Origin: Acetohalobium arabaticum DSM 5501 | Lineage (GTDB): Bacteria; Bacillota; Halanaerobiia; Halobacteroidales; Acetohalobiaceae | DNA length: 64,000 nucleotides | Direction: 5' to 3' | Assembly (NCBI RefSeq): GCF_000144695.1 | Contig: NC_014378.1 | Span: 2,387,289 to 2,451,288, forward strand | Shown here: in pieces, positions 7,480-53,946 of the stretch | Layout of the letters: each line of letters begins with the position of its first letter | How positions within the stretch are numbered: the stretch's first letter is position 1 | Position numbers and translations under genes: made by a program | Notes under the pieces: generated by a model | The model's database searches: none | Told to the model about the DNA's origin: nothing | What the model saw: the letters and a program-made list of their open reading frames with translations, nothing else

Positions 7480-8811
7480 TTAAAATTCTTTCACTGTCTT
7501 TGGAGACCAACCAAGTACCTGATCACCACAGAACATTGAATCATTTGCCATGATAATTGAATCATCTTCTCTTACTGAAGGACCTAGTTTTTCATCATCT
7601 TCCCAACCTCCAGCTAAACCATCTCGTGCTAATGATTCTAACTCACCAATTACTGTTTCCATTGGAGGAAGTTCAATTAAAGCAGAAACATTACCACAAG
7701 AAACAATAGCATCTGCAGCATCATCTAAACTTACTAGTGGTTGAGAATGACCATCTGAACCAGTACACTCATTAGTCATTCCTACCGTCTTAATCCCAGC
7801 CTCTTCTAAAAGTTTAAAGCATTCAATAAAATCAGCATCTGTATTACCATAACCTTCTTCGGCTATAATTGCTGCATCTGCACCTAAAGAAGTAGATAAC
7901 TGTTGTACAAATAATGCAGCTCTTTCTTTTTGCTCTAGAACTACATTTAAGTTAGACATAATTACACCTAAAAAGTTAATTGTTTCTCCATGCTGTTCAT
8001 ATAATTTCTTAATTGTGGGACAATTCTGAAAATCGTAAGTTGCCCATTTAGAAGAACAACACATATAACTACCACCTATAATTGCACCATCTAGTATCTC
8101 GTTAGGATGCATTAAGGTAGGTAACATTCGATTTGTATCCCAACCATAAACCAAATCATTATACCCTAACTCTTCTATCTGAGATTGTGGTTGCATTACA
8201 TAAACTACGGAAGGTAATTCCTGGGTTTTCTTATCCCTCTTAGTAATTGGAGCTAATTCAAACTCTTCTACATCTTCCTTCTGTGGTTCAAGATCCTTTA
8301 CAGCAGTAGCTAGATACTTGGCTAACCGATGAGTAGCCCATCTGATAGCATGATTCTTCTTCTGTTGTTCATGACGTTCAAACTCTTCATCTGTATCTGC
8401 TACCAGACAGATATTGTTTAACTGAGAGAAGTAAGTATATTTAGCACCTTCACCACTCATATCTATTAAACCATCACCAAAACTACCCCAGTGTTTACCA
8501 ATACCTAATACACTACAGTTCTTTAAGGCCTTTGTCTTTCCGCTACCCACGCTTTCTACATCATCTGTTACTCCAGGAAAAACAGCGCCATCATCCTCTT
8601 TATATCTTGGCTCTACTGCTTCTTTAACTGGAACAATTCGCTTTTCTTCTCCTGGACGAGCAAATACTATATCAGCTTCTGTAATATGCTCATCCTTTTT
8701 GACAACCTCTAAAGCTTCTTCTTTATTAATAGTCAATAAGCCGTCATTATAAGAGGTTTCATCTCCAAACTGCATTTCTTCTACAGGAAAGTTATCTATT
8801 TCTAAACGCAC
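7480..8811 (-). CDS. grdI: betaine/glycine reductase component B proprotein subunit (GrdE/GrdI family), copy 2
   Basis: 443 residues, paralogue of 628-1959. Start GTG 8811 (MRLE) follows GGGGTGGAG. The likely pyruvoyl-forming Cys is the second of GSYMCCSSKW near residue 252; copy 1 has Pro-Cys here, so only the second Cys is conserved. Further family blocks are NECTGSDGHSQPL and GNVSALIELPPMETVIGELE. It precedes grdH by 27 bases and follows grdA by the conserved double hairpin. Substrate class (betaine, glycine or sarcosine) is not resolved by sequence alone. Confidence 0.9.
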   Translation of the reverse strand: MRLEIDNFPVEEMQFGDETSYNDGLLTINKEEALEVVKKDEHITEADIVFARPGEEKRIVPVKEAVEPRYKEDDGAVFPGVTDDVESVGSGKTKALKNCSVLGIGKHWGSFGDGLIDMSGEGAKYTYFSQLNNICLVADTDEEFERHEQQKKNHAIRWATHRLAKYLATAVKDLEPQKEDVEEFELAPITKRDKKTQELPSVVYVMQPQSQIEELGYNDLVYGWDTNRMLPTLMHPNEILDGAIIGGSYMCCSSKWATYDFQNCPTIKKLYEQHGETINFLGVIMSNLNVVLEQKERAALFVQQLSTSLGADAAIIAEEGYGNTDADFIECFKLLEEAGIKTVGMTNECTGSDGHSQPLVSLDDAADAIVSCGNVSALIELPPMETVIGELESLARDGLAGGWEDDEKLGPSVREDDSIIMANDSMFCGDQVLGWSPKTVKEF

Positions 8812-8846
8812 TGCTATCTCCACCCCTTTCTTTTTAGTGTTAAGAT

Positions 8847-8935
8847 AGATACCAGACTTTCAATTATCTGGTATCTGTTTTTTTCAGCACAAATAGGTAA
8901 TAACCAACTCTGTTGAAAGTTAGCTATTACCTATT
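8847..8935 (-). promoter_or_regulatory. double hairpin between grdA and grdI, copy 2
   Basis: Counterpart of the structure in unit 1. Hairpin one (8892-8935) overlaps the grdA stop with arms AATAGGTAATA and TATTACCTATT. Hairpin two (8847-8876) has arms AGATACCAGA and TCTGGTATCT. Differences from unit 1 keep the stems paired or turn pairs into wobbles, which supports a function. Confidence 0.6.
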
Positions 8936-9407
8936 AATTATCTAAAAATTTACAGTACTCTTCTCTATATTTCTTAACTTCATCAACAATATTATCAACT
9001 TCAAGAACCATTTCCATCATACTGATCTGTTCTTCATAAACATCCTCATCAATCTCGTCTTTAATCTCTGGTTCTACTACGTGGTAAACTCTGAGTCCTA
9101 ACTGGACCCCTGCTAATGGACCGGCAAAAGTAGGATCTCCATTAGTAACAGTCTCGGCTGCTAAACCAGAAGCTTCTGCTTCTGCACCGCCTAAGATTAC
9201 TACTAAGTTTTCTTCTCCATGTTCCTCAGCGAGATCTTGAATCCTCTTTTGATTTTCCAGGTCCATAGCTCCTGCAGCTGTTCACACGAAACATTCTGTA
9301 GAACCAAAAACTACTTCGGCCCCAGTTGTTTCTATGCATTCTTGGATTGCAGGAGCTGGAATTCCGTCACGATCGCCAATAATAGCAACTTTCTTTCCTT
9401 CTAACAT
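8934..9407 (-). CDS. grdA: glycine/sarcosine/betaine reductase selenoprotein A, copy 2
   Basis: 157 residues with selenocysteine 42 encoded by TGA at 9282-9284 in ECFVUTAAGAM. ATG 9407 follows GGAGGTGGAATT, the same ribosome site as copy 1. It is the first gene of the second reductase unit (grdA-grdI-grdH) and the first grd gene downstream of selA-selB on this strand. It is almost identical to copy 1, with differences scattered in the acidic C-terminal half. Confidence 0.96.
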
Positions 9408-9455
9408 AATTCCACCTCCAATTTGATTTTTTGACAAATTCCTTCATTTATCTTA

Positions 9456-9498
9456 ATAGTAACACAATTATGACTATTTGTCTATGATTATTTGTCAA
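9456..9498 (-). promoter_or_regulatory. grdA copy 2 promoter and repeated operator half-sites
   Basis: On the minus strand TAGACA (9479-9484), 17 bases, then TACTAT (9456-9461). A second TTGACA is at 9493-9498. The word TGAyTATTTGTC occurs at 9471-9482 and 9485-9496, and a TGATTAT half-site follows at 9502-9508. The arrangement parallels the grdA copy 1 promoter with one extra repeat. Confidence 0.65.
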
Positions 9499-9597
9499 TC
9501 GTGATTATAAATTTGACTTAATATGTTATTTATTGACATTTTTTGCGAATTATTTTATTCAAATCATAACTATATTGATATATTGTTGCAGTTTAGA

Positions 9598-9803
9598 GTT
9601 GATATCTTGCAAACGCTCCAAAAATCAACCCTAATCAATTAGCAATAAATTAACTTTAGAGCTACTATTTAAATACCCTACTTTATATGTTAGCCATTTC
9701 CTCTTGTGGGGCTGCTTTACGACGAACAGAACGTTCTAGTGCTGACGCTGCAACAGGATGTTGCGGTTAACGTCAGTTAAGTCGCTTGTTGCAAGATATC
9801 AAC
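9598..9803. repeat. element bounded by 15-base perfect inverted repeats
   Basis: GTTGATATCTTGCAA (9598-9612) is matched exactly by TTGCAAGATATCAAC (9789-9803), about 205 bases overall. Near the right end a nested hairpin CTGACG...CGTCAG encloses GCAAC...GTTGC (about 9742-9776). No complete gene lies inside; a short minus-strand frame ending RRKAAPQEEMANI may be a gene remnant. It could be a miniature inverted-repeat element or a structured RNA. Confidence 0.45.
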
Positions 9804-9974
9804 AATAATTGTACAAAATAATCTGAGGAAGCGTTTAAAACCAGATCAATGAAAATTTAACTTATTTGCAATTAGCAACAGGAGAGAAAAAAGATCTGGA
9901 ACGGAGAAACTCCTCAAGCTGAGCAGAGCATTCTTGGCTACAAACTAGTCTTTTTCTATTCTAATAGTTTTAGT
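9804..9974. other. non-coding, no clear gene
   Basis: Between the inverted-repeat element and the intron remnant. CCAGATC (9841-9847) and GATCTGG (9893-9899) form a short inverted repeat. This may be the decayed 3' part of the intron, but I found no domain V. Confidence 0.4.
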
Positions 9975-10262
9975 ATGAATTTCTCCGTTATTTAGGCGGA
10001 TCACCACAGTTAAATGCCACCTCTGGTTCACTTTTGTTTCGGACTGACAGCACATCTCAGATTCTTCAGATTCTATCTCACGATAGACACCCTATCACTG
10101 TTGACTTCATGTACCATTTCAGTTTAGACTTAGGTTGACGTTTGTTTTCTCCGTTTGCTCACCCTTTTCGTCTGTGAGTGCCACAATATCTCAACCTTAT
10201 CTACCATGTTGAAAGCACAGATAGGACTTTCACCCATTGACAATGCAATTTACGGAACACAC
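9975..10262 (-). mobile_element. group II intron 5' remnant (domain I), no reverse transcriptase
   Basis: Read on the minus strand it opens GTGTGTTCC, the usual intron 5' end. Next come domain I-like blocks: GGGTGAAAGTCC, GTCTATCGTGAGATAGAA, TCTGAAGAA, AAAGTGAACCAGAGGTGGC and GGTGATCCGCC. These resemble bacterial group II intron RNAs as I remember them; no alignment was run. No intron-encoded protein and no domain V/VI are visible, so it is truncated. The 5' end lies just past the selB terminator hairpin, a site type favoured by class IIC introns. Confidence 0.6.
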
Positions 10263-10271
10263 CAACAAAAA

Positions 10272-10298
10272 AAACAGCACTTATAATAAGTGCTGTTT
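10272..10298 (-). terminator. selB terminator
   Basis: Perfect hairpin AAACAGCACTTA / TAAGTGCTGTTT with a run of eight U on the transcript. It ends the selA-selB unit and abuts the intron remnant. Confidence 0.88.
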
Positions 10299-10316
10299 CT
10301 ACATCATATTGTGAAT

Positions 10317-12227
10317 TTATTCAGCTAAAATCCGTTTATCCCCAACCCGTTTTGTCACGCCCTGCTGATCAAAGTAATTCAACAGCGGCAGTGTATATTT
10401 TCGGCTGCTATCTAATAAATCTCTATATTCTGCCAGCGTAATCTCCCCATTATCAGCTAAGAAATCTTTTAACCTTTCTCTAGCTTCATTTAGAGTTTCA
10501 TAGTGGAGATAGATCTCAGCATTGATTCTCTTTAATCTTCCTTTACATACTAATAAATCAAATAAATCCTCTATTAATTCTTCTTCAACCTCAAATTTTT
10601 GCTGTAATTCCGGTAGTGTAGGCGGCATGAAAGAATTATTCCTAAATTCATCTTCAATTCTATTCTTAAGCTCTTCTTCCTGTTCAGTTAACTTTATTTC
10701 ATGTTCGGTTAATTTAATATCAGCTTTCTTTATCTCAATTACTCCTTCTTCTTCAAGACTACTCAAAAACTGATCATATTCCTGCTTGCTTAACTCAAAC
10801 TGCAGCTGGCTCCTTACCTCTTCTTTAGCCCGTCCCCAGCGAAGATGATATTGACGGTGATACTCTTTTAGTGCTTCAACCACCTGATCCTTAAGACGAC
10901 TATAAACATTATAATGCAGATACGAAACCTGCTGTCCTGTAGTGAATTTGAAGATTTTATTCTTTTCAACCAACTTAACACACTTATCCTTTATCTCATC
11001 AACTGTTAAGCCTATTTCTATCATCAAATCTTTCGGCTTAACTGTCTGCTTATAATCCTGAATTACAACTTCAATCCTTTCTAAATCACTACCCTCTTCC
11101 TGTATCTGTAATTTAGATAATAATTCACTATTAAAGCGTTTATGTTTACCGCACCTCGGAAGCAATACTCTTCCTCCACCAACAGTTACTACTGGTGAAT
11201 AGCGTCTAATAACAAAGGGCTGATTATAGTAAGCAACCATAGATTCTTCTAACCTCAATTGGACATAGGCTTCTTCGCCAGGATAGATAGTTTCTTTATT
11301 TAGAATACTGATTCGGCCAAAGACCTCTTTAGCACCTAAATGGATCCTCAACCGCTCATTCTGCTCTAAGCTTAAAGGAGCATCCGGCAGCAGTTCCAGT
11401 TTAACATCCATTAATGTAGTCGAATCCAATGTATGCGGTTCAGCTAAAATATCTCCGCGTGAAATATCATCAACATCCACATCGGCTAGATTAGTTCCAA
11501 CTCTCTGCCCGGCTACTGCTTCCTCTACTGCTTCACCATGCACATGAAGATTCTTAACCTCTACTTCCTCTTGTTGAGGATAAATAATACCTTTATCCCC
11601 CTCCTGTAACTTACCGGCCATTAAAGTTCCGGTTACTACTGTACCAAAGCCATCTATCGAAAAGGATCTATCAAGCGGATAATAGACATTATCATCCTGA
11701 TTTTTAGGCTCCATTCCCTTAGCTATCTCCGTTAATTCTGCTATTAATTTTTCTATCCCAGTTCCTGTTACTCCAGAAACCGGAACTAAAGCTGCTTCTT
11801 CTAGAAAGGTACCGGCCAAATTATCCTTTGTATCTTCTTTAACCAGTTCCAACCATTCTTCTTCTACTGTATCTACCTTAGTAAGGGCTACTACTCCTTC
11901 TTCTACCCCTAAAAGCTCTAAAATATTGAGATGCTCCTCTGTCTGCGGCATAAAGCCTTCATCAGCAGCAACTACTAATAAAGCTAAATCTATCCCTCCA
12001 GCCCCAGCCAGCATATTCTTAACAAACTTCTCATGGCCCGGTACATCAATAATCCCCAGCTCTATCCCTTCATCTTCCAACTCAAAGGAAGTAAAGCCTA
12101 AATCAATGGAAATTCCCCGTTCCTGTTCCTCTGCCAATCTATCAGTATCAGCTCCGGTTAATTTCTGAATCAATGTGGTTTTACCATGGTCAATATGGCC
12201 TGCTGTTCCTAAAATCAAGTGCTTCAT
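10317..12227 (-). CDS. selB: selenocysteine-specific elongation factor SelB
   Basis: 636-residue translation GTPase that delivers Sec-tRNA to UGA codons marked by a SECIS hairpin. The N-terminus has GHIDHGKTTL (P-loop), DVPGHEKF (G3) and TKVD (G4). Beta-barrel domains follow, then about 250 C-terminal residues of winged-helix repeats that bind the SECIS RNA. It starts four bases after selA ends, so the two are co-transcribed. It serves the four selenoprotein genes in this window. Length is normal for bacterial SelB. Confidence 0.97.
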   Translation of the reverse strand: MKHLILGTAGHIDHGKTTLIQKLTGADTDRLAEEQERGISIDLGFTSFELEDEGIELGIIDVPGHEKFVKNMLAGAGGIDLALLVVAADEGFMPQTEEHLNILELLGVEEGVVALTKVDTVEEEWLELVKEDTKDNLAGTFLEEAALVPVSGVTGTGIEKLIAELTEIAKGMEPKNQDDNVYYPLDRSFSIDGFGTVVTGTLMAGKLQEGDKGIIYPQQEEVEVKNLHVHGEAVEEAVAGQRVGTNLADVDVDDISRGDILAEPHTLDSTTLMDVKLELLPDAPLSLEQNERLRIHLGAKEVFGRISILNKETIYPGEEAYVQLRLEESMVAYYNQPFVIRRYSPVVTVGGGRVLLPRCGKHKRFNSELLSKLQIQEEGSDLERIEVVIQDYKQTVKPKDLMIEIGLTVDEIKDKCVKLVEKNKIFKFTTGQQVSYLHYNVYSRLKDQVVEALKEYHRQYHLRWGRAKEEVRSQLQFELSKQEYDQFLSSLEEEGVIEIKKADIKLTEHEIKLTEQEEELKNRIEDEFRNNSFMPPTLPELQQKFEVEEELIEDLFDLLVCKGRLKRINAEIYLHYETLNEARERLKDFLADNGEITLAEYRDLLDSSRKYTLPLLNYFDQQGVTKRVGDKRILAE

Positions 12228-12230
12228 ACC

Positions 12231-13625
12231 TTATGCCTCCTTTATCAAACTGCTAAAGTGAGTAAATATTGTATCAATCTCCTCATCTTTGATAGTCCTT
12301 GCATCAATAATTATCTTCTCATCCTGAATCCTAGTAAAAAGAGGCGGGTCCAGTTCTCTTAATCTATTACCTGTTTCATTAGCTGTTAAATGATCAACAG
12401 AAACTTTAACTAGAAATGTTGCTAAGTCTTCATTGGGAAAGGCTCCTCCGCCTACCTGTGAAAAACCCTGCTCTACTTCTGCTTCTAAACCAGATAATTT
12501 ATCCAATCTTGAAGCCAGTCTATCAGCTCTTTGTCTTAATACTTCTGAGTCCATCGTCAACAACCTCAGCGTAGGTACCTTTTCAACTGCTGTTTCTAAA
12601 TCTAAATAGAGACGCAGAGTCTCTTCCAGGGCAGCCAAAGTGAACTTATCGACTCGCAGCGCTCTATTTAAAGGATTCTCCTTTATCTGTTGAATATACT
12701 CTTTTTTTCCAACAATGATTCCAGCCTGAGGACCTCCCAATAATTTATCACCGCTGAAAGTTATTACATCAGCCCCAGCTTCAACATTGTCCTGTACAGT
12801 AGGTTCTGGACTAAAGCCATACTGACTAAAATCAATTAAGGTTCCACTTCCTAAATCATTCAACACTGGCAGATCATGCTCTGCTCCCAGCTCTACTAAT
12901 TCTTCTAAAGATACTTGTTCAGAAAAACCTACAATTCGATAATTGCTAGTATGGACATCCAATAATAATCCGGTCTCCTCAGTAATAGCAGCTTCATAAT
13001 CCCTTAAGTGGGTCTTATTAGTAGCTCCTACTTCCACCAGTTGGGCTCCGCTCTGTTCCATTACCTCTGGAATTCTAAATGAACCTCCAATTTCAACTAA
13101 CTGTCCCCGAGATATAATAACCTCTTCTCCTTCCGCTAGAGTACTTAAAGCTAATAATACAGCCCCTGCATTATTATTGACAACTAAACTATCCTCTGCT
13201 CCAGTTAAATACGTCAATAATTCTGCTACATGATCATATCGTGAGCCTCTCTGGCCAGTCTGAACATCTATTTCTAATGTGGAATAATTCTGAGCCACCT
13301 CAACTAATCTTTTCTGGGCCTCTTCAGTCAGCAGAGATCGGCCTAAATTAGTATGGATCACCACTCCTGTTCCATTAATGACAGACTTAAGGTTTGGACT
13401 CAACCATTCCGCAGCTCTCTTGATCACCAACTCAACTACTTTAACCATTGATACTTCAAAGTCCTCAGGAATATCTTCGTTTAAAATCCTTTCCCGTAAT
13501 TCTTCATTAGCTCTTCTTATTACATCAACTACAGCTTCACGAGAATACTGAGCAACCAATTCCTTAATTGCTTTTTCCTGTAATATTTTATCAACAGCAG
13601 GAATCTGCCGTAAATACTTCTCCAT
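12231..13625 (-). CDS. selA: L-seryl-tRNA(Sec) selenium transferase
   Basis: 464-residue PLP enzyme converting Ser-tRNA(Sec) to Sec-tRNA(Sec) with selenophosphate. The PLP lysine lies in FSGDKLLGGPQAG, and other family blocks are VINGTGVVIHTNLGRS and VVNNNAGAVLLAL. ATG 13625 is preferred (GGGGTG five bases upstream) over a frame opening at 13640. First gene of selA-selB. Neither tRNA-Sec (selC) nor selD was found in the window. Confidence 0.97.
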   Translation of the reverse strand: MEKYLRQIPAVDKILQEKAIKELVAQYSREAVVDVIRRANEELRERILNEDIPEDFEVSMVKVVELVIKRAAEWLSPNLKSVINGTGVVIHTNLGRSLLTEEAQKRLVEVAQNYSTLEIDVQTGQRGSRYDHVAELLTYLTGAEDSLVVNNNAGAVLLALSTLAEGEEVIISRGQLVEIGGSFRIPEVMEQSGAQLVEVGATNKTHLRDYEAAITEETGLLLDVHTSNYRIVGFSEQVSLEELVELGAEHDLPVLNDLGSGTLIDFSQYGFSPEPTVQDNVEAGADVITFSGDKLLGGPQAGIIVGKKEYIQQIKENPLNRALRVDKFTLAALEETLRLYLDLETAVEKVPTLRLLTMDSEVLRQRADRLASRLDKLSGLEAEVEQGFSQVGGGAFPNEDLATFLVKVSVDHLTANETGNRLRELDPPLFTRIQDEKIIIDARTIKDEEIDTIFTHFSSLIKEA

Positions 13626-13640
13626 ATTTTCACCCCACAT

Positions 13641-14126: not shown

Positions 14127-14200
14127 AATTAGGAAATAATCCGTAACCCTCCCTTTTTCAAATGGGAGATATAAGGATTAGCAAATATTAATTTAAACAA

Positions 14201-14229
14201 TTGATATTTGCTTCATAATTTGTTATAAT
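14201..14229 (+). promoter_or_regulatory. promoter of the structured RNA
   Basis: TTGATA (14201-14206), exactly 17 bases, then the consensus TATAAT (14224-14229). Transcription should begin near 14236, about 15 bases before the structured part begins at 14251. No gene is read in this direction, so the product is the RNA. Confidence 0.75.
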
Positions 14230-14235
14230 TTGAAT

Positions 14236-14521
14236 ATGGATTACAAGTGAATATTGGAGGTTGCAGTAGCTAAACCTCTACTGTGTAAAATATTCAGGGT
14301 GCTCGTTGTAGATAGAAGACACTAAATCTTCTAGTAAGCACTTATAGAGGTGCTTACACTTCTATCTTGAGCAGAGTAAAAGTATCTCTGAGTCTAGCAC
14401 TTATGCTAGATAGGAGTAGTGACGTTGGACACGCCAATTGGGTAACTTGCTTGATATTACGGGTAACTCCCATAAAAGCAGGCGACCATGAAGCTCGGTA
14501 TTTCAATGCCGAGTAGTTCAC
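14236..14521 (+). ncRNA. orphan HEARO / omega-RNA-like structured RNA (IscB-type), no nuclease gene adjacent
   Basis: A dense fold follows GTGA (14247-14250). An outer stem GAATATT/AATATTC encloses a pseudoknot: AGGTT pairs AACCT while CAGTAG pairs CTACTG. A long arm AGATAGAAG/CTTCTATCT contains hairpin GTAAGCAC/GTGCTTAC. Next is hairpin CTAGCA/TGCTAG, then a final hairpin CTCGGTATT/AATGCCGAG followed by TAGTTCAC, typical of IS200/IS605-superfamily right ends. HEARO RNAs are known to sit directly after ATGA or GTGA, and IscB omega RNAs carry the guide at the 5' end; the layout fits both. Assignment is from remembered family features, not a covariance search. Alternative: a TnpB-type transposon-end RNA or PATE. 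Confidence 0.6.
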
Positions 14522-14545
14522 TCACTCCTTAAGTTTATAATTAAA

Positions 14546-53778: not shown

Positions 53779-53845
53779 TCTCCCTTCGGTGTTATAATTG
53801 TACCGCTTGGACCTGACTAAAAATACGGAACCCTAGGTACACTTC
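53762..53845 (-). promoter_or_regulatory. PRPP riboswitch (ykkC subtype 2b)
   Basis: Minus-strand conserved words ACCTAGGGTTCCG, GGTCCAAGCGGTACA, ACACCGAAGGGAGAAAAGCC match the ykkC class. Location directly before purD and just after a guanine aptamer indicates the PRPP variant. PRPP, the substrate of PurF, would switch the operon on. ppGpp specificity (2a) is the alternative; the purine context favours PRPP. Confidence 0.85.
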
Positions 53846-53914
53846 CCTCATAGTCAGGTAGTTTACGGCTACCTGGTAGAAACTCGTAGGCCTTATTCCC
53901 ACAGTTATATGAGG
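53846..53914 (-). promoter_or_regulatory. guanine riboswitch aptamer
   Basis: P1 CCTCATA/TATGAGG closes the junction, with GAGTTTCTACC and GCCGTAAACTACCTGACTATG. The base in CTGACTATG that contacts the ligand is C, which selects guanine over adenine. It precedes the PRPP aptamer, forming a two-input switch: guanine off, PRPP on. Confidence 0.92.
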
Positions 53915-53946
53915 CTATCATTCGGATATAATCTTTTTTCAAATTT

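Follow-up and report, generated by a model that had tools for sequence, protein, structure and literature searches.

A tnpB-less IS200/IS605-family element of Acetohalobium arabaticum with a conserved 5' pseudoknot domain and a putative stand-alone TnpB-type omegaRNA

The element, its copies and its ends

The window, a stretch of 64,000 nucleotides of the Acetohalobium arabaticum DSM 5501 genome, carries on its forward strand a short element (Table 1) that holds no protein gene and no open reading frame of more than 55 codons. Elsewhere in the window, a bacterial SECIS element (RF01990; 6359-6396, minus strand) is clustered with glycine/sarcosine reductase-like and SelA/SelB-like genes (7480-13640, minus strand) in a selenocysteine locus, and a purine riboswitch aptamer (RF00167, 86.7 bits) is found at 53831-53932 (minus strand).

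A whole-genome search recovered 10 near-full-length copies of the element at different loci, including that of the window, with different flanks at every copy; the window copy and one other are 100% identical over 393 bp. Sixteen further places in the genome match positions 14371-14522 only. The flanks diverge before a TTAG tetranucleotide on the left and after TTCAC on the right. TTAG precedes all nine copies in this genome whose left end is intact, as well as a related copy in the MAG of an uncultured member of the Halanaerobiales (L093). The first-pass annotation had placed the insertion after GTGA and had proposed to look for related copies at GTGA or ATGA sites; related copies exist, but they follow TTAG, and the real left edge lies about 115 bases upstream. 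When the flanks are joined after TTAG, continuous frames are obtained at two sites without target duplication, one in a HepT-like gene (L088) and one in a glutaredoxin-like gene (L089), both gene names being assigned by eye. The right-end hairpin, which had already been described in front of TAGTTCAC, is indeed present, and a compensatory change from T:A to A:T has occurred in it among the copies. By its hairpins at both ends, its fixed left target of four bases, the absence of target duplication and the lack of a protein gene, the element conforms to the IS200/IS605 pattern and is identified as a non-autonomous, recently mobile member of that family.

Intact tnpA genes are present in the same genome, where one tnpA-tnpB element has the same right end as the element described here. 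With blastn, no autonomous element sharing this left end could be detected in the genome, and searches of plasmid and phage collections and of viral contigs gave no match.

Table 1. Features of the element and its immediate surroundings (coordinates of the window)
Feature	Position	Strand	Remarks
TTAG target tetranucleotide (host side), candidate transposon-associated motif	14129..14132	+	
Whole non-autonomous IS200/IS605-family element	14133..14521	+	389 bases; ends placed where flanks diverge
Left-end hairpin AATCC...GGATT	14138..14179	+	imperfect palindrome, close to perfect in copies L078 and L089
Putative sigma-70-type promoter	14201..14229	+	TTGATA (14201-14206), 17 bases, TATAAT (14224-14229); 11/12 consensus matches; predicted start ~14236
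5' pseudoknot module	14243..14302	+	P1 14249-14255/14289-14295; pseudoknot helix 14263-14269/14278-14284; short P2 between
Family-specific long arm, from module to omegaRNA core	14303..14370	+	2/68 positions variable within the element family; differs between families
TnpB-type omegaRNA core and right end	14371..14521	+	151 nt; 88-91% identity to the stop-codon-to-right-end sequence of 16 own-genome tnpB elements
Right-end hairpin CTCGG...CCGAG, followed by AGTTCAC	14493..14514	+	common to all 16 tnpB elements
Host DNA following the right end, predicted as guide segment, TCACTCCTTAAGTTTA	14522..14537	+	deduced from the TnpB reRNA (~16 nt of flank)

The predicted RNA and its 5' module

The promoter proposed in the first pass is borne out by its consensus matches and by its retention, with few changes, among the own-genome copies, and a -10-like box also lies upstream of several distant copies of the 5' module. 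Promoter-like matches in the region occur at chance level (2 found, 1.9 expected). The fold claimed for the RNA was likewise recovered and far exceeds chance, with a predicted free energy of -96.5 kcal/mol between 14236 and 14525 (z -5.6) and none of 200 shuffled sequences as stable. The outer GTGAA/TTCAC stem did not hold up as a conserved feature, as relatives end in GTCAA or TTGAC. Among the own-genome copies, the module and the arm together vary least, with 4 variable positions out of 128, versus 23 of 110 in the left end and leader (p 2e-5) and 13 of 119 in the omegaRNA core (p 0.02).

The 5' module also occurs in related genomes, where its surroundings are unlike those in the window. The H-type pseudoknot already suggested at this place is supported by covariation, since its helix is paired in 12 of 12 sequences, with changes on both sides at six of the seven pairs. 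In 25 distinct sequences aligned without reference to structure, 96.6% of the cells are paired and both-side changes occur in 12 of 13 pairs; the covariation of the module reaches 0.707, compared with 0.243 in shuffles, and pairing falls to 26-53% when the partner strand is slid out of register. The GAATATT strand pairs locally with AATATTC (14289-14295), and this pairing also covaries. Around the covarying pseudoknot, the unpaired runs GTT, GTAAAA and CAAGGT are strongly conserved. No family of Rfam 15, ribozymes and riboswitches included, matches the module in the window or in ten relatives. The covarying pairs define a previously undescribed RNA domain, in which a stem encloses an H-type pseudoknot.

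With a covariance model of the module (R1), it was detected in 8 of 13 genomes of the order, in 14 of 59 genomes of the class Halanaerobiia and in 13 of 398 genomes sampled in the phylum Bacillota; beyond Halanaerobiia, it occurs in about 10 other sampled Bacillota. The idea that the module is a part of tnpB elements was rejected, as R1 gave a single clear match in over 40 tnpB/tnpA loci (L167), which proved to be a separate module element beside a tnpB element. Three well-paired copies (L126, L131 and L081, in genomes G158, G086 and G008, respectively) have no recognizable IS605 right end and lie near protein genes or a glycine riboswitch; these are remnants or possibly domesticated copies.

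Relationship of the 3' half to TnpB omegaRNAs

The 16 partial matches in the genome coincide with 3' ends of tnpB elements. Those that were read contain a gene of 433 codons, and there the match extends from its stop codon as far as the right end. The Rfam model sot0042 (archaeal sotRNA) matches the element weakly, below its gathering threshold (35 bits, E 1.5e-7), and it also weakly matches a tnpB right end. A consensus fold of the element and the tnpB right ends comprises 44 pairs, 8 of which show compensatory changes. Homologous to the segment that lies between the tnpB stop codon and the right end, and conserved in its secondary structure, the 3' half of the element is assigned as a TnpB omegaRNA.

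This assignment bears on the position of the guide. TnpB systems use as their guide the host DNA immediately 3' of the right end, and the reRNA, which consists of the right end and some 16 nt of flank, has been proposed to direct cutting of donor joints (PMC8612924). In the element, the guide would accordingly be the 3' flank and not the 5' leader. The leader had been taken for guide-like in the first-pass annotation; it is element sequence, common to all copies at their different sites, with only family-level substitutions between them.

The same annotation had assigned the RNA to the IscB-associated HEARO type, with a guide at its 5' end. A GTGA near the start, the pseudoknot and the IS605-type terminal hairpin give it a superficial resemblance to such RNAs, and iscB genes exist in the genome. 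Their RNAs are unrelated to that of the element, however, and neither iscB nor isrB lies beside the element, as had been stated. The Rfam HEARO model has no match to the element RNA up to an E value of 10, yet it detects exactly two RNAs in the whole genome, each located immediately upstream of an iscB gene. Together with the constant leader and the TnpB-type 3' half, this makes an IscB-type omegaRNA extremely improbable, and on sequence grounds that reading is refuted. The genome has four iscB-type genes or fragments (L038 to L041), two of which are accompanied by identical HEARO RNAs; the other two have a different upstream sequence that is missed by the HEARO model. No module motif was found upstream of L040 and L041, so that the module was also rejected as the omegaRNA of a non-HEARO iscB. 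An IStron was discarded after a search for group I introns gave no match to the element up to E 10, and none of the other Rfam families identified the element RNA.

The module is joined to the omegaRNAs of different TnpB proteins. Similarity between the 3' half of the RNA and tnpB right ends of the same genome amounts to 92-94% in G222, 98% in G102, 97% in G181 and 85% in G003. In five genomes, whose TnpB proteins have five unlike C-termini, the homology begins between -40 and +7 relative to the tnpB stop codon; the match in G181 is shorter and begins further downstream of the stop codon. At least 17 of the 25 module loci match some tnpB locus, a lower bound because only some tnpB loci per genome were compared. 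Right ends were recognized by homology to tnpB right ends, an automatic detector of hairpins plus motifs being too noisy, and most module copies have an IS605-type right end on their 3' side.

Exchange between families is best documented by L093. Its 5' 290 bp are 94% identical to the window element, and its 3' part is 85% identical to the omegaRNA of another TnpB, against 74% to the omegaRNA of the A. arabaticum TnpB; the two TnpB proteins are 71% identical. This comparison identifies L093 as a chimera of a window-type 5' half and the omegaRNA of another TnpB. At another locus (L011/L059, G000:C1:23199-23457), a window-type module, arm and partial omegaRNA are enclosed by a leader and a right end from a second module family, to which L028 also belongs; this locus is apparently a further recombinant.

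The resident TnpB is an OrfB_IS605 protein with a Cas12f1-like_TNB domain; open genes are present, and an intact tnpA adjoins one of them. The tnpB genes that were read among L012 to L027 encode VGDI (Gly-Asp) at RuvC-II, where Glu is normal; a Glu is present in the sequence EKYTS close to the zinc-finger region, the zinc finger itself being apparently degenerate. The resident TnpB thus apparently has an alternative-Glu arrangement, as known in other TnpBs (PMC10711439), and its activity would depend on this alternative position. The tnpB elements follow TTTAG at 14 of 14 sites, whereas the element copies follow NTTAG, with T at 5 of 10 (p 0.006), so that the complete motif recognized by the resident TnpB may be missing from about half of the donor sites of the element.

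Possible function of the element and alternative readings

The reading that we favor, with somewhat better than even confidence, is that this element without a protein makes a stand-alone, mobile TnpB-type omegaRNA that is used in trans. It is based on the copies, the tnpB-type right end, the matches within the same genomes, the L093 chimera, the covariation of the module, the compensatory changes in the omegaRNA helices, the low variability of module and arm, and the presence of open tnpB genes and an intact tnpA. Against it stand the difference between TTTAG and NTTAG, the failure to find an autonomous element with this left end, the altered RuvC-II site of the resident TnpB and the few module copies that lack a right end. 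Transcription would start from the element's own promoter, and the transcript would run through the right end into the flank. It would be bound by TnpB made in trans from the tnpB elements, while TnpA, also supplied in trans, would excise and move the element. TnpB would then be directed to the empty donor site left by excision (TTAG and flank) and cut it, and repair from the sister chromosome would restore the copy, as proposed for ISDra2 (PMC8612924). The element thus probably borrows a TnpB made elsewhere in the genome to stay in place. A normal omegaRNA is cut out of the tnpB mRNA by TnpB itself (PMC10278001); the 5' pseudoknot would stand in for the tnpB coding part of this usual precursor, and it may shield or mature the 5' end of the free omegaRNA. 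The outline of the first-pass proposal, an IS200/IS605-type element that lacks a nuclease, has a promoter of its own and supplies a guide RNA likely used in trans, is thereby retained, with the family and the polarity of the guide corrected. A more tentative extension, for which we have limited confidence, is that the pseudoknot domain makes a mobile RNA usable by many TnpBs in trans, the elements being guide-RNA parasites that retain this domain while exchanging their omegaRNA half to suit the TnpB at hand.

The element might instead be a plain deletion derivative, of the PATE or MITE type, moved in trans through its DNA ends, with the omegaRNA half a leftover and the RNA devoid of function. 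Terminal hairpins suffice for TnpA, and the high identity between elements would follow from recent spread; PATEs that consist of only their ends and a tnpB remnant have been described in Halanaerobium (PMC7290912). Nevertheless, we regard such an origin as unlikely, given that the 5' half does not consist of a tnpB remnant and has its own promoter, that its pseudoknot pairs covary across distant Bacillota and that the 5' module and arm vary least within the element. The omegaRNA core, which TnpA does not need, has moreover been retained and can be switched to that of another TnpB type. Alternatively, the 5' module might be a ribozyme or a ligand-binding RNA, serving in self-processing or in the regulation of tnpA or tnpB, with the omegaRNA half as cargo or as a decoy that titrates TnpB. 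The conserved unpaired runs around the pseudoknot do resemble those of small ligand-binding or catalytic RNAs, and a few copies next to genes lack a right end, but the absence of any Rfam ribozyme or riboswitch match and the IS605-type right ends that follow most copies make this quite improbable.

The preferred reading, that of a stand-alone omegaRNA, sets the element apart from the systems to which it is related. Like the known TnpB omegaRNAs or reRNAs (PMC8612924; archaeal sotRNA, RF02656; IS605-orfB-I, RF03065), it has a 3' half extending from stop codon to right end, a terminal hairpin and an expected 3'-flank guide, but it lacks tnpB, has its own promoter and carries a 5' pseudoknot that is absent from the tnpB elements examined. 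PATEs, which are known also in this order, are similarly ends-only and non-autonomous, with TnpA expected in trans (Halanaerobium hydrogeniformans; PMC7290912); the present element differs from them by its promoter, its conserved and unrelated 5' RNA domain, its complete omegaRNA core and its occurrence across Bacillota. With the HEARO omegaRNAs of IscB (RF02033) it shares the status of guide RNA of an IS200/IS605-type element, but it has no covariance-model match to them, its guide would lie on the other side and the nuclease would be different. Stand-alone omegaRNAs acting in trans were reportedly described for IscB by Altae-Tran et al. in 2021; they too are guide-RNA loci without a nuclease gene beside them, whereas the present element is of TnpB type and has an added 5' domain.

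TnpB omegaRNAs are normally regarded as processed 3' ends of tnpB transcripts. While PATEs and TnpB omegaRNAs are thus already known, a putative tnpB-less omegaRNA that has its own promoter and a conserved 5' domain shared across Bacillota, and that is matched to different TnpBs, appears to be new; a literature search conducted mostly outside subscription journals yielded no account of tnpB-less omegaRNA elements with this domain. If the proposed reading is correct, TnpB guide RNAs would spread as independent mobile genes that exploit TnpB in trans, and the module would be a new RNA domain whose function is directly testable.
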